DNA of 64,000 nucleotides from a virus (IMGVR_UViG_3300010885_058378:1-64000); one strand, 5' to 3'. Positions 58,603-64,000 are shown, numbered from the stretch's first letter. A program made the numbers and translations. Notes: generated by a model not told the origin, from the letters alone.

Positions 58603-59327
58603 TATTAGGAATCTCTGGAAGGAAGCAGTCCGGAAAAAGCACAATAGGCAATTTTATACTATCTCTATATCTTGCTAAGCTAGGATATTGTGAAAAAATT
58701 TATATGGATGAAGATGGTCAATTATTGATTTCTGATATTCTGGGAGACACTAGGTATGAAGGTATTTTTGATATTAGAAAATTAGTGGATACATACAATG
58801 ATCCAAGATTTATACAAGCTATTAATAAGCTTAATTCAAAGGTAAAAATATACAATTTTGCTGATATTTTAAAAACAGACATCTGTATTAATATGCTAGG
58901 ATTAACATATGATCAGTGCTACGGAACAGATGATAATAAAAACGAAATGACAAACATAGTATGGAACGATAAGAAACTATCTGCTAGAGATGTTATGCAA
59001 GTTGTAGGCACTGATATTTTTAGAAAATTAGATACTAATGTGTGGGTTAGATCCACTATTAATAAGATTATTAGAGATAAACCAGACCTTGCTGTTATTA
59101 CTGATTGTCGATTTCCTAACGAAGTAGATTCTATTAAGCAAAGTGGTGGAAAGGTTATAAGATTAACTAGAAATCCATTTCAATCAGATCATCTAAGTGA
59201 AACAGTATTAGATAAAGACAACTATGATTGGTCTAATTTTGATTATGTAGTAGAAAATTCTGATGTTACTCTTCTTGATCAATTTACTCAGATTAAAAAA
59301 CTATTAGAGGAGATATTACCATTATAA
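58596..59327 (+). CDS. Deoxynucleoside monophosphate kinase
   Basis: The 243-aa protein has GISGRKQSGKST (P-loop, residues 5-16), SARDVMQVVGTDIFR, WVRSTINKI and VITDCRFPNEVDSI; these motifs match phage dNMP kinases (T4 gene 1 type), which phosphorylate dNMPs to dNDPs. It complements the ribonucleotide reductase and dCMP deaminase. The GAGGAG near its 3' end probably serves the following nuclease gene. Confidence 0.85.
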   Translation: MLILGISGRKQSGKSTIGNFILSLYLAKLGYCEKIYMDEDGQLLISDILGDTRYEGIFDIRKLVDTYNDPRFIQAINKLNSKVKIYNFADILKTDICINMLGLTYDQCYGTDDNKNEMTNIVWNDKKLSARDVMQVVGTDIFRKLDTNVWVRSTINKIIRDKPDLAVITDCRFPNEVDSIKQSGGKVIRLTRNPFQSDHLSETVLDKDNYDWSNFDYVVENSDVTLLDQFTQIKKLLEEILPL

Positions 59328-60361
59328 TAACATACTTTAGAAGTTCATCTTATAACACACACTCTCTTTGCGAACAGCAATATTTTGGTGAGTACGTACT
59401 AGGGTGGAGAGGATTGTCTGGCCAAAAAGCAGATAAAGGAACTATTACTCATAAAGTTCTTGAAATTTTAGCGGTTATGAAAAAAGCCGAGCAAGATGGA
59501 CAAACTACTATTGATGACGATCTTATCGGATTAGTTGATATTAATAATTATGATTTAAATAATTTAATAGAGAAAGTATATACCTATTATACTAATAATG
59601 CTCAGCATCATAAGTGGTCGGCTAAAGATCATAGAGACTGTAAAGACTGGGTTTATAAGGCTATAGAATTTAATGGCGGAATGTTTGATCCTAGAAAAAG
59701 AAATATTCTTTGTCCAGAACAACACTTTGATTTTGAGATTAAAAAACCCTGGGCTAAATACTCTTATGATATTGGCGGAGAAAAACTTGAGGGCAATCTA
59801 GCACTAAAGGGCACAATTGACTTAATAACATTGGTTAATGATTCTACAATAGAAGTAATAGACTGGAAAACTGGAAAAAGATTAGATTGGGCTACTGGAG
59901 AAGAAAAAACCCAAGAGAAGCTAGAAAAAGATCCACAGTTAAAGATCTATCACTATGCAATAAAACATCTTTATCCTCATATTAAGAATATAATATTTTC
60001 AATATATTTTATTAATGATGGTGGACCATTCTCCATTTGTTTTCATGATTCTGATCTAGCATCAACAGAAGATATGCTAAGACAAAAATTTGAAGCAATT
60101 AAAAGCACTAAAAAGCCAAGACTACATAAAAGCTGGATGTGCAGTAAGTTGTGTCATTTTGGCAAAACAACATTTGATGGAACTCATATTCAGCCAATAG
60201 AGGAATACAGAGATGGACAAGTATGCAAATCTGGTCAAACCATGACAAAGTGCGAACAGATAAAACACGACCTTGATCTTTATGGAATCGACACTACAAT
60301 TGGATTGTACAAGAACAAGAATCACTCATTTGGAAGTTACAAAGCACCCGGATCAATATGA
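59327..60361 (+). CDS. Cas4/AddB-type PD-(D/E)XK nuclease with non-canonical start
   Basis: The conserved N-terminus, TYFRSSSYNTHSLCEQQYF, begins before the first ordinary start codon (TTG 59414): the frame is open from ATT 59321, ATA 59324 and ATA 59327, behind GAGGAG (59307-59312). I set the start at ATA 59327, which would mimic the TAATG overlaps used elsewhere. Motifs: GTIDLI and VIDWKTGKR (catalytic D and E-x-K), and four cysteines near the end (CSKLC, QVC, TKC). The Cys in THSLCEQQ supports the longer start because Cas4-type nucleases need one N-terminal Cys for their Fe-S cluster. A role in recombination or end resection is likely. Confidence 0.75.
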   Translation: MTYFRSSSYNTHSLCEQQYFGEYVLGWRGLSGQKADKGTITHKVLEILAVMKKAEQDGQTTIDDDLIGLVDINNYDLNNLIEKVYTYYTNNAQHHKWSAKDHRDCKDWVYKAIEFNGGMFDPRKRNILCPEQHFDFEIKKPWAKYSYDIGGEKLEGNLALKGTIDLITLVNDSTIEVIDWKTGKRLDWATGEEKTQEKLEKDPQLKIYHYAIKHLYPHIKNIIFSIYFINDGGPFSICFHDSDLASTEDMLRQKFEAIKSTKKPRLHKSWMCSKLCHFGKTTFDGTHIQPIEEYRDGQVCKSGQTMTKCEQIKHDLDLYGIDTTIGLYKNKNHSFGSYKAPGSI

Positions 60362-61773
60362 CAAAAACATATTCAGTTCTTCATGCTCATTCTCACTATA
60401 GTCTTTTAGATGGAATTAGTAAACCTAGTCAAATAGCGGAAAGATGCGTTAATGCCGGAATTAAAACCTGTGCAATAACTGATCATGGAACTATTTCTGG
60501 ATGTGTGCAGTTCTATCAGGCAATGAAAGCCAAAAAGATTAAACCAATATTAGGTTGTGAACTTTATATATCTAAAAATGATTCTCTTATTAAAGAGAAA
60601 GAGAATAAAGATTTAAGTCATTTCCTCGTTCTTGCTAAAAATCTAGCAGGATGGAGAACTCTTGTAAAGATCATATCTGAAACTAACAGAATAGATAATT
60701 TCTATCATAAGCCTAGGATTAGTTTTGATAGATTAGCACCCATTCTAGACGGAAATATTATAGGGTTTTGTGGTCATTTAGGATCAAGCATATCAGATTT
60801 GGTTGAGGAAAATCCTGATAACTATACTGATAAGGCAATATCTTTTATAGACCATATGAAAGAAATATTTGGCAAAGATAATTTCTTTTTAGAAGCCCAA
60901 CTCATGGATCAGGAACTAAATCCTAAACAAAAAGAAATGACAGATATAATGAGACAATTATCTGTTAAAACTAAAACTAAAATAATAGCTACTCCAGATG
61001 CTCATTATTGTGAAAGAAAAGACGCTATTGATCAAAGGATTTTATTATGTAATAATCTTAAGACAACTTTAATAGATATAAATAAGAAACTCTTGGCTAA
61101 TGAGGAAGTGCCAATGGGTTGTTTTTTTAAATCGGACAACTATCATATTCCAGATCCAGAAGAAATGACGGAGTGGCATACTAGCGAAGAAATTGAAAAT
61201 ACTCTATATGTTGATTCAATGTGCGAAGAGTATTCTATTCTTAGTAAGCCAGCCCTTCCTGCCTTTGAATGTCCAAACAACTCTAATCCAGAAGAATATC
61301 TGAGACAATTATGTAGAGATGGTTGGCGAGAGAAGATAATGAATGATATTCCAGAGTCTGAGCATACCAAATATGCAGACAGAGTAAAATTAGAATTAGA
61401 TATTTTACAAAAAGCTGGATTATCTAGTTACTTTCTTATAGTACAAGATATTGTAAACTATGTTAAAAAGAGTGGATGGCTTCCAGGACCAGGAAGAGGA
61501 TGTTTTGTTCCTGATACGAACGTTAAAATGCACGACGGAACAACAAAAAAGATCTATCAAATCAATATAGGAGACATTATAATAGATGCCTATGGAAATC
61601 CCCAGGAAGTTTATGATACTTTGCAGTATGATATTAATGAAGATATTATTGAATTAATATTTGAAAATGAAAAAACTATTAGATGCACTAAAGATCATAA
61701 ATTTTTAACAAAAAATAGAGGGTGGGTAGAGGCCCAATATCTCTCAGATATAGATGATATTGTAGAAGTTTAA
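60358..61773 (+). CDS. dnaE: DNA polymerase III alpha, N-terminal piece with N-intein
   Basis: The 471-aa protein has 381 residues of N-extein and 90 residues of N-intein. The extein carries the PHP domain (HAHSHYSLLDG, ITDHGTISG) and the first part of the palm, up to LPGPGRG. The intein then begins with Cys1 at 61501 and includes the block B motif CTKDHKFL before the stop at 61771-61773. The active polymerase must be rebuilt by protein trans-splicing with the product of the gene at 62604. It shares 4 bases with the nuclease gene. Confidence 0.88.
   Translation: MTKTYSVLHAHSHYSLLDGISKPSQIAERCVNAGIKTCAITDHGTISGCVQFYQAMKAKKIKPILGCELYISKNDSLIKEKENKDLSHFLVLAKNLAGWRTLVKIISETNRIDNFYHKPRISFDRLAPILDGNIIGFCGHLGSSISDLVEENPDNYTDKAISFIDHMKEIFGKDNFFLEAQLMDQELNPKQKEMTDIMRQLSVKTKTKIIATPDAHYCERKDAIDQRILLCNNLKTTLIDINKKLLANEEVPMGCFFKSDNYHIPDPEEMTEWHTSEEIENTLYVDSMCEEYSILSKPALPAFECPNNSNPEEYLRQLCRDGWREKIMNDIPESEHTKYADRVKLELDILQKAGLSSYFLIVQDIVNYVKKSGWLPGPGRGCFVPDTNVKMHDGTTKKIYQINIGDIIIDAYGNPQEVYDTLQYDINEDIIELIFENEKTIRCTKDHKFLTKNRGWVEAQYLSDIDDIVEV
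61501..61770 (+). mobile_element. Split intein, N-terminal half (90 aa)
   Basis: Starts with Cys1 (CFVPDTNVKM) after the GPGRG of the polymerase; contains TxxH in RCTKDHKFL and ends at a stop. A class 1 (Cys-type) split intein by these residues. Confidence 0.88.
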
Positions 61774-61796
61774 AAAGAACCCCTTCCTAGACTTTT

Positions 61797-61812
61797 GGTG
61801 TATGTTTATATA
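61797..61812 (+). promoter_or_regulatory. GGTGTATG promoter-like motif in front of the inserted endonuclease
   Basis: GGTGTATGTTTATATA lies 26 bases before ATG 61823, in the short gap after the split-intein stop. It suggests that the endonuclease and the C-terminal polymerase piece have their own transcript. Confidence 0.45.
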
Positions 61813-61822
61813 GAGAAATATT

Positions 61823-62632
61823 ATGAAAAATATAACATTCAAATTTTTAGAAAATAATAACTTTAAATTTAAGGGATTCAGTAATACTCCCATAAAAGAT
61901 CAATGTATAACATGTCAAAAAATATTTGAATATAAAAAACTTAAAAAATTTCTAAGAAATAGACTATCTTTGCCCACTTCTAAGTGGTGTCAATGTCATA
62001 AATGTTTTTTAAAATTTAGAACTATTAATAATCCAGAATGGATGGAAAGTAATCGAAAAGCACAGCTTATAGCACAAAATAAACCAGAGCAAAAAAAGAA
62101 AAATGCTCTAGGAGTGTCAAGAAGCTGGGATAATAAGAGGAAAAAGAAAGCTTCAATCTATCTAAAAAATAGATGGAAAACAGATCCAAAATTTGCCGAA
62201 AAAGCCAGATCAAATTTAAAAATTAATGATACTCAACATATAAAAAATACATTTGGAATTGGTGGACTAAAAGGATTTTATAATGAAATATACTATGATA
62301 GCGCATTAGAGTTATCGTATTTATTATGGTGTGAACAACTTAGTATTCCAATTAAAAGATATGATCTAGATCCAATACAATATGAAATATCAAATAAACA
62401 AAAGTTATATTTTCCAGATTTCATTATCCATGAGGACATAGTGGTAGAGATAAAAGGTAAGGGCTTGTATTTTGCTAAAAATAAAGAACAAAATTTAGCG
62501 AAAACTGCAGAAGCCAAGAAAAAACTAAAAAATAAATTTATAATAATATTTGATCAAGACAAAGAAGTTAAAACCTACTATAAAAAAGCCAGAAAATTAC
62601 ATCATGAAATTAAAAAGCAAAAAGATAATTAA
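61823..62632 (+). CDS. Free-standing endonuclease (PD-(D/E)XK type) between split-intein halves
   Basis: The 269-aa protein has an N-terminal zinc-finger-like part (CITCQK, CQCHKC), a basic helical linker (QKKKNALGVSRSWDNKRKKK), and a nuclease core: YYDSALELSYLL, then LYFPDFIIHEDIVVEIKGKG, where P-D and E-I-K form the PD-(D/E)XK site. Endonucleases in breaks of split inteins are known from metagenomic phage data (fractured genes of Dassa et al.); this is such a case. It presumably cuts the unbroken allele and copies itself. It overlaps the following gene by 29 bases. Confidence 0.85.
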   Translation: MKNITFKFLENNNFKFKGFSNTPIKDQCITCQKIFEYKKLKKFLRNRLSLPTSKWCQCHKCFLKFRTINNPEWMESNRKAQLIAQNKPEQKKKNALGVSRSWDNKRKKKASIYLKNRWKTDPKFAEKARSNLKINDTQHIKNTFGIGGLKGFYNEIYYDSALELSYLLWCEQLSIPIKRYDLDPIQYEISNKQKLYFPDFIIHEDIVVEIKGKGLYFAKNKEQNLAKTAEAKKKLKNKFIIIFDQDKEVKTYYKKARKLHHEIKKQKDN

Positions 62633-62711
62633 GAATTACACAGGAAAAGTCCATGATATCTCTGTTAAAAATTCTGCATCCTATAATGTAGAGGGGTTGG
62701 GAGTACATAAT
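62604..62711 (+). mobile_element. Split intein, C-terminal half (36 aa)
   Basis: Carries block F (GKVHDISVKNSASYNVE) and block G ending GLGVHN, followed by Ser as +1 residue at the polymerase junction SAAG. The 36-residue length is typical for the C-half of natural split inteins. Confidence 0.88.
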
Positions 62712-63437
62712 TCTGCTGCAGGATGTTTGGTATCATATCTTATTGGTATTACTCAAATTGATCCTATCAAATATGATTTACTCTTTGAGAGATTTTATAA
62801 TGAGGGCCGTAATACTGCGGATCATATTTCCATGCCAGATATTGATGTTGATGTTCCAATTAATAAAAGAGAACAGATCATCGAATATATTAAAAATAAG
62901 TATGGTTCAGACAAGGTTTCTCAAATGATTACATTTAATACTATGAAAGGCAGGGGTGCCTTAAAAGAAGTATTAAGAGTGTATGACAATATCTCTTTTG
63001 AAGAAATGAATCGAATAACAAAGTTCATTCCTGACGAAGCAAAAATTGCTGACGAATTACAGGAAATGAAAGAAGATACCGGAGAGGCATCTATTATCAG
63101 GTGGGCACTAGAAAACAATGTTGACAAACTGAAGGAGTGGTGCTATATTAGTGATGATGGTTCTCTTGCCGGACCTTTGGCCAAAAGGTTTGAACAAGCC
63201 ATCCGACTTGAAGGAACTAAATCTAATCAATCCAAACATGCCGCCGGTGTAGTTATTAGTAGTCAAAGTCTCAGTGCTGTTTGTCCCATGGTTTATGATT
63301 CTAAAAATAAACAAGCAATAGCAGGGATGGAGATGCAAGATTTGGAAAATTTAGGTTTAATCAAATTTGATATTCTAGGCGTTGCTATGTTAGACAAAAT
63401 TATGACCATATCAGAAATTTTATGCAAAGGAGAATAA
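62604..63437 (+). CDS. dnaE: DNA polymerase III alpha, C-intein and palm/thumb piece
   Basis: From ATG 62604 the protein has 36 residues of C-intein (MKLKSKKI to VEGLGVHN) and then 241 residues of polymerase, starting SAAGCLVSYLIGIT. It contains PDIDVDVP with two catalytic Asp and FDILGV with the third. The protein ends 20 residues after that, so the fingers, HhH and OB parts of a bacterial alpha (about 1160 aa) are absent here; together with the first piece only about 620 residues of extein are encoded. The rest may be a further gene outside the window, or this is a reduced polymerase. A longer frame starting 62550 is less likely. Confidence 0.85.
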   Translation: MKLKSKKIIKNYTGKVHDISVKNSASYNVEGLGVHNSAAGCLVSYLIGITQIDPIKYDLLFERFYNEGRNTADHISMPDIDVDVPINKREQIIEYIKNKYGSDKVSQMITFNTMKGRGALKEVLRVYDNISFEEMNRITKFIPDEAKIADELQEMKEDTGEASIIRWALENNVDKLKEWCYISDDGSLAGPLAKRFEQAIRLEGTKSNQSKHAAGVVISSQSLSAVCPMVYDSKNKQAIAGMEMQDLENLGLIKFDILGVAMLDKIMTISEILCKGE

Positions 63438-63438
63438 A

Positions 63439-63618
63439 ATGCAAAAACAATTTCATGAACTAGCGATTGGTGATAGATTCACAGTTAATGGCGTTGAATA
63501 TATTAAAACTGAAGAAGTTAGAGTTAGCTGTTGCAGAAGTATCAATTGTTATGCTTCTTCTGACGCTAATCAAAAAGGACATTTTCCCGGAAATACAGAA
63601 GTTACAATAAATGGCTAA
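63439..63618 (+). CDS. Small conserved phage-type protein, 59 aa
   Basis: A short frame starting one base after the polymerase piece. HELAIGDRFTVNGVEYIKT resembles the start of the protein at 21310-21561, with IG(D/E)xF and a following (N)G-x-x-Y. AAAGGAGAA gives a strong ribosome-binding site. It overlaps the exonuclease start by 8 bases. Function unknown. Confidence 0.6.
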   Translation: MQKQFHELAIGDRFTVNGVEYIKTEEVRVSCCRSINCYASSDANQKGHFPGNTEVTING

Positions 63619-64000
63619 TCTACAAAAAATTTGTGTCTTTGATTTGGAAACAGACGGAGTTAATCCTGATCTTTGCAGTCCAGTTCAAATTGCTGCGGTT
63701 ATGGTTGATCCACTAAAATTAGAAATAGTTAAAGATTCGGAGTTTAATATTACCGTTAAGCCATTGATACTAGAAGAAAAACCAGAGTATGTTTATTCTG
63801 ATTCCGATGTTCTGGACTTTCATGCCAAGGTAAAAGGAAGTACAAAAGATCAGATTTTAGAATCTTGGAAAGCATACCAGAAGCAAGAGCACGGATGGAA
63901 TATGTTCATATCCTACTTGGAAATGTATCATATTAGATCCAGCGGTAAGAAGTCTTGTTTCACGGCACCTATTGCTGCTGGTTATAATATTAATAGGTTT
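63611..64000 (+). CDS. DEDD-family 3'-5' exonuclease (3' truncated)
   Basis: 130 residues are visible to the window edge. ICVFDLETDGVNPDL has the first two acids (D-x-E) of the DEDD exonuclease active site near residue 11, and IAAGYNINRF near the end is the second acidic motif region (the Asp would follow). Such DnaQ-like exonucleases supply proofreading or degradation next to replication genes. ATG 63611 overlaps the preceding gene. Confidence 0.8.
   Translation, partial: MANLQKICVFDLETDGVNPDLCSPVQIAAVMVDPLKLEIVKDSEFNITVKPLILEEKPEYVYSDSDVLDFHAKVKGSTKDQILESWKAYQKQEHGWNMFISYLEMYHIRSSGKKSCFTAPIAAGYNINRF

Follow-up and report, generated by a model that had tools for sequence, protein, structure and literature searches.

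In the virus record IMGVR_UViG_3300010885_058378, the gene for the alpha subunit of DNA polymerase III (dnaE) is interrupted at Gly363|Ser364 (Escherichia coli numbering) by an insert of 1211 bp (61501-62711, plus strand). This insert is very probably a mobile split-intein element that occupies the deoxynucleoside triphosphate (dNTP)-binding GS motif of the polymerase with which the phage replicates its DNA; it would be removed by trans-splicing and would spread by homing. The window, i.e. the whole stretch of DNA that was analysed, comprises bases 1-64000 of the 131,481-base IMG/VR record; L-numbers denote fetched contigs or loci, and the record bases past 64000 are covered by locus L002.

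The region consists of three open reading frames (ORFs) on the plus strand, dnaE-N-intN, a nuclease gene and intC-dnaE-M, which occupy three different frames. The first ORF (60358-61773) encodes an extein of 381 aa (60358-61500) with the PHP domain (E=1e-35) and the start of the palm (DNA_pol3_alpha model positions 1-66), which ends in LPGPGRG and is 98% identical in the empty-site relative L014. It is followed by the intein N-half (intN; 61501-61773), 90 residues with a stop codon at 61771-61773. The third ORF begins with an ATG at 62604, so that it shares its first 29 nt with the end of the nuclease gene. It encodes the 36-residue intein C-half (intC; 62604-62711), which runs directly into SAAG and 237 more polymerase residues. 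This second extein of 241 aa (62712-63437) holds the remaining palm with all three catalytic aspartates (Asp401, Asp403 and Asp555) and matches DNA_pol3_alpha from model position 66 to 260 (E=5e-55); the Pfam match is broken by the insert at position 66. Hence, the enzyme gene is divided into two ORFs at the intein insertion point, the N-half ends the first and the C-half starts the second, and a separate endonuclease ORF lies in the gap in another frame than both halves. A preliminary description of this DNA had already located the N-half, its stop codon, the endonuclease ORF and the C-half in front of a serine, all of which were found again in our ORF analysis.

Both halves carry the residues expected of an active intein. 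The N-half, with the Cys1 codon at 61501-61503 and the block B motif TxxH (here TKDH), matches the NrdJ-1 profile and scores 25.9 bits against TIGR01445 (intein N-terminal region; curated cut-off 24.5); its Cys1 and the sequence CTKDH are invariant in six alleles. The C-half comprises blocks F and G and ends in VHN; its start and the pattern VHDxSV...VHN are likewise conserved in six alleles. Together with the PHP match and the interruption of DNA_pol3_alpha, these results bear out the earlier view of a fractured gene with a split intein. The junction Gly363|Ser364 corresponds to the GS motif, the part of a pol-beta-like palm that binds the triphosphate of the dNTP. In agreement with the previous assignment of GPGRG/SAAG to the active-site loop of the polymerase, Ser+1 (62712) aligns with S364 of E. 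coli DnaE (structure 2hnh), and this serine would double as an active-site residue and as the +1 splicing nucleophile. We infer from the sequences that the two halves undergo trans-splicing. The position of the break within the dNTP-binding GS motif and the constraint on both halves strongly suggest that splicing would have to precede polymerase activity.

It is important to note that the intein is not the only discontinuity in this polymerase. The preliminary description had counted two pieces; the intein break stands, but the fingers, HHH and OB domains of DnaE are also encoded apart, by a 541-aa ORF beyond the window (record 64315-65940, i.e. L002:8316-9941; DNA_pol3_finger E=2e-41), so that the whole polymerase is made up of three genes. 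This second break contains no intein. The fingers part is separate from the palm in 114 of the 114 clade loci that hold it (some of them from the same contig), including those of empty-site phages, and is fused to the palm in 11 loci, all from more distant relatives. Since the separation is also present in empty-site phages, the two-chain polymerase (palm and fingers) of this clade is inherited by descent from an old, intein-free split, and the intein re-splits one of the chains. The enzyme thus tolerates breaks, and one could imagine that the two halves also fold and work unspliced and that the intein pieces are vestigial. However, Cys1, TxxH, the penultimate His, Asn and Ser+1 are retained across alleles that are only 60-75% identical, and unspliced ends inside the GS motif, beside the active site, would occupy the dNTP site. 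We therefore regard assembly without splicing as quite improbable.

That the polymerase is a dying pseudogene is scarcely credible. Its three ORFs and the broken nuclease genes of some alleles might give this impression, but in a comparison of the window with the sister phage locus L012 the ratio of nonsynonymous to synonymous substitution rates (dN/dS) of the exteins is 0.03-0.04, and the intein halves show few amino acid changes. Moreover, no second copy of the dnaE N-piece was found elsewhere in the 131,481-base record, and the same arrangement recurs in about 30 alleles.

Relatives with and without the insert reveal its exact boundaries. A scan with the dnaE N-piece yielded 14 relatives, of which only L012 has the insert (L020 and L022 end before the site), and a scan with the C-piece gave more than 70 contigs with an empty site and eight occupied loci. 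Using the intein N-half profile, we detected an intein at precisely the same residue in about 40 contigs of IMG/VR, which represent about 30 distinct alleles. The insert is absent between the same flanks in L013-L019, L021, L023-L025 and most of L029-L106. In L014, the DNA on the two sides of the site is 93.8% and 92.7% identical to that of the window, the insert is exactly missing, and the exteins of both are identical across 320 tree columns. Because the insert recurs in register in L012 and in some 30 alleles, while more than 70 contigs are joined directly, its occurrence is far beyond chance. The preliminary description had named an assembly chimera as the finding that would overturn it, and had considered the locus a possible new example; the former is refuted by the independent contig L012 (98.4% identity in register) and the diverged alleles, and the latter understates a recurrent target whose relatives had been missed. 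A gap that is removed at the RNA level has precedents, as group I introns occur in phage polymerase genes and a homing endonuclease gene is annotated further along the same gene in phage G. Yet the intein blocks are coded up to the junction at both ends of the insert, and no intron family is among the Rfam matches for 59000-64000, on which grounds group I and group II introns were rejected. Taken together, RNA-level removal or a chimera is extremely unlikely.

The insert also has a history of its own. Between the window and L012, the synonymous divergence (dS) amounts to 0.41 and 0.34 for the N- and C-terminal exteins and 0.16-0.69 for neighbouring genes, as opposed to 0.083, 0.057 and 0.048 for the intein N-half, the nuclease and the intein C-half. 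Synonymous differences number 109/365 in the exteins and 13/217 in the insert (Fisher p=4e-13). The 98.4% identity of the insert exceeds the best value among 9058 other stretches of the same size (96.4%). Since the insert is far less diverged than its flanks, it evidently entered at least one of the two lineages after their separation. The codon of Ser+1 is TCT in both occupied alleles and AGT in the nearest empty ones (L013-L018), a difference that would fit a short co-conversion. From a phylogenetic perspective, the extein tree contains six changes of occupancy, at least two of which are forced by starred branches, and for 14 alleles the intein data and the extein data each reject the tree of the other. 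Considering how few columns are involved, the log-likelihood gaps are large, and we therefore place more weight on the pair L042 and L120, whose inteins are 86% and exteins 55% identical. Judging from these comparisons, the element is mobile and patchily distributed. In cellular copies of DnaE, no intein turned up at this site when 84,980 species genomes were scanned with a pattern-based approach.

The gap between the halves is filled by a free-standing gene for a 269-aa protein (61823-62632, plus strand), which is a predicted homing endonuclease. It displays a zinc-ribbon-like CxxC..CxxC part, a helical NxxxQxxxQNKPE region and the core E163..PD199..E209xK211. In an alignment of 18 family members drawn from the fetched intein loci, C28, C31, C58, E163, P198, D199, E209 and K211 are invariant. 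The AlphaFold model (mean predicted local distance difference test score 87; predicted template-modelling score 0.48, the placement of the domains being unsure) has the element order alpha-beta-beta-beta-alpha-beta. Together with the E..PD..ExK motif and weak links in Pfam, PDB and BFVD, this order places the protein in the PD-(D/E)XK superfamily, and the invariant catalytic residues support the earlier description of a complete endonuclease of this type. No Pfam match of the window protein reaches the curated cut-off; in the family as a whole, 14/18 members hit Phage_endo_I and 12/18 hit a TnsA-like family. A Foldseek search of viral models returned Endonuclease I, NUMOD3 and TnsA-like phage proteins. 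The gene is under purifying selection (dN/dS 0.08-0.16, window vs L012). A Vsr/EDxHD type was rejected, as the motif is E..PD..ExK and not E-x-D-G-x-x-H. The same phage has a 265-aa ORF with an EVDGPSH motif and no Pfam match (L002:16975-17772, record about 72974-73771), which resembles EDxHD/Vsr-type homing endonucleases; neither BLASTP nor hhalign (probability 0.4%) related it to the nuclease.

The nuclease might instead be a passenger with another role, e.g. interference with rival phages, while the split intein moves by general recombination. Viral loci that have no intein (L198-L208) indeed contain more distant relatives, and clear passengers are known from other alleles, such as an MT-A70 methyltransferase gene in L147. 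But in the loci that were retrieved for related inteins, the nuclease family is restricted to the dnaE site; it is often lost from alleles that keep the intein, and the element moves with sharp boundaries. In our view, a mere passenger is rather unlikely.

According to the favoured model of trans-splicing and homing, dnaE-N-intN and intC-dnaE-M would be made as separate proteins whose intein halves associate, and Cys1/Asn36/Ser+1 chemistry would ligate Gly363 to Ser364. The resulting scarless PHP-palm subunit would act together with the separately encoded fingers/OB subunit. In co-infecting phages whose GPGRG|SAAG site is uninterrupted, the nuclease would cleave this site, and repair off the occupied copy would bring in all three parts plus a few flanking bases. 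Once the sites are filled, selection on the nuclease would lapse, and its decay or deletion would leave a split, nuclease-free intein. Several observations weigh against this model. The homing endonuclease is a prediction from position, motif and population pattern, and its sequence links to T7 endonuclease I are weak (E=0.013-0.036). Foldseek against the PDB gave no match for it at E<=0.001, the top rows above this value including nucleases of the PD-(D/E)XK superfamily such as Cas4-like SSO0001, I-Bth0305I and TnsA. Shine-Dalgarno sites ahead of the nuclease gene and intC are weak, and no single population with both alleles was seen, the empty and occupied phages being from different metagenomes. 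Finally, charge complementarity of the halves (-9/+5) was discarded as proof of adaptive splitting, because contiguous alleles have opposite charges, too.

Besides the empty site, a whole series of states exists at this one residue. Contiguous inteins are present in L137, L142, L145 and the phages G and Lactococcus 949, and in L144 the nuclease is fused in frame to intN with intC being separate. The window and many other alleles are split and have a nuclease. In L042 (in-frame TAG) and L115 (broken frames) the nuclease is decayed with both halves intact, and L038, L109, L110, L118, L120, L126, L138 and L146 are split without an intact nuclease. L038 retains only a 3' nuclease remnant next to intact intein halves. 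L109 and L111 are 97.5% identical, and a clean 1015-bp deletion in L109 removes the nuclease and leaves the halves as separate ORFs. This pair is direct evidence, at the level of sequence, that a fractured gene can give rise to a natural split intein without a nuclease. Two further split alleles carry passenger genes between the intein N-half and the nuclease, namely the MT-A70 methyltransferase gene of L147 (L147:4319-4891) and a 421-aa ORF of unknown family in L129 (L129:4296-5561). In the intein tree, the presence of the nuclease changes six times among split alleles; it has been lost repeatedly, and the split persists. Two contiguous mini-inteins, L137 and L145, are placed with strong support within a group of nuclease-bearing split alleles (L125 and L127). 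Tentatively, one might read this as a reversible process, in which some contiguous inteins are re-joined split ones and the site cycles from empty to fractured with nuclease, fractured without nuclease and re-joined. A single clade of all split alleles is weakly rejected (approximately unbiased test, p-AU 0.036; the intein tree is unrooted), and repeated splitting of contiguous inteins fits equally well. Further inteins are found at other DnaE sites: that of L145 follows PDID/C beside a catalytic Asp, and those of L150 and L173 lie in the fingers (GIFQ region).

A non-coding spacer of 49 nt (61774-61822, plus strand) precedes the nuclease gene. An alignment of 18 alleles revealed the element AAAAAGAACCCC..GGACTTTT..GTATA, which occurs once in the window and is conserved even between alleles whose nucleases are 52% identical. 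The promoter-like motif proposed earlier did not withstand scrutiny: a consensus scan found nine sites vs 8.6 +/- 2.9 expected, i.e. chance level, and a sigma-70 promoter in front of the nuclease gene was rejected. A shared terminator hairpin was dismissed as well, since single-sequence folds differ among alleles. Upstream of dnaE lie replication genes for a DnaB-like helicase, a Toprim primase, a deoxynucleoside monophosphate kinase and a PD-(D/E)XK exonuclease. Downstream, a gene for a DnaQ-like exonuclease (RNase_T E=2e-11) starts at 63611, continues past the window to record position 64306 on the plus strand and precedes the fingers gene; this gene order is conserved across the clade. In L012, a 227-aa ORF (L012:9114-9797), HNH-like by eye and without Pfam match, is inserted at the end of dnaE-M. 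The C-terminus of dnaE-M in L012 differs from that of the window, and the 227-aa ORF itself ends in LCKGE, like dnaE-M of the window.

These results bear on the origin of natural split inteins and on the question of why some have no endonuclease. A single residue is seen in the empty, contiguous, nuclease-fused and fractured states as well as with a decayed or a deleted nuclease, the last of these in the pair L109/L111, so that the individual steps can be tested in E. coli. Some 30 predicted split inteins, most of them with about 90+36 residues, thereby become available for protein ligation, together with a nuclease family that has no above-cut-off match in curated libraries.

Among known systems, the cyanobacterial split DnaE intein (Ssp/Npu) also divides DnaE, although the sequence match is weak (E about 3e-4). 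It has another insertion site, is encoded by unlinked genes and is not known to have an endonuclease. Of the inteins with a solved structure, the natural split intein NrdJ-1 (PDB 8ubs; E=1e-7), which comes from another host protein, is closest to the N-half in sequence. ORF116 of Lactococcus phage 949 and gp329 of Bacillus phage G share the identical insertion point GRG|C...HN|S, but they are distant in sequence (34% identity over the N-half alignment), and each has its intein contiguous within a single ORF (in phage G about 245 aa, in 949 larger). In phage G (L027:3946-7918), gp330, an annotated homing endonuclease, lies between gp329 and gp331, downstream of the contiguous intein. In cultured phages, neither the split form nor the nuclease was found to have a close relative. 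PHROGs 13169 and 21652 already contain unlabelled intein halves of the same kind, and intein N-halves, often unlabelled, occur at the edge of split genes in Campylobacter phage nrdA (H83-H92) and T4-like uvsW (H93-H102). The nuclease has the PD-(D/E)XK core in common with the folds of T7 endonuclease I, TnsA and I-Bth0305I, the similarity being weak. Fractured genes were reportedly described for eight enzymes by Dassa et al. in 2009 (NAR 37:2560). This paper is cited by PMC3653736 and PMC12350094, and a recent preprint on Jug phages mentions DNA polymerase genes that are split by intervening endonuclease sequences (PMC12363816). We did not find the combination of the DnaE GS-motif site, this nuclease family and the complete series on record, and an earlier listing by Dassa et al. 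is possible. The family searches, the junction alignment and the endonuclease in the gap agree with the initial proposal that the architecture is of the known fractured-gene kind. As in those systems, a split intein, with a free-standing endonuclease ORF between its halves, breaks a conserved phage enzyme of DNA metabolism in two. However, the nuclease is of the PD-(D/E)XK type with zinc-ribbon-like and helical parts, whereas the described type is Vsr/EDxHD. Here, moreover, the element targets the GS motif of DnaE, and a single residue shows intermediates of both gain and loss.
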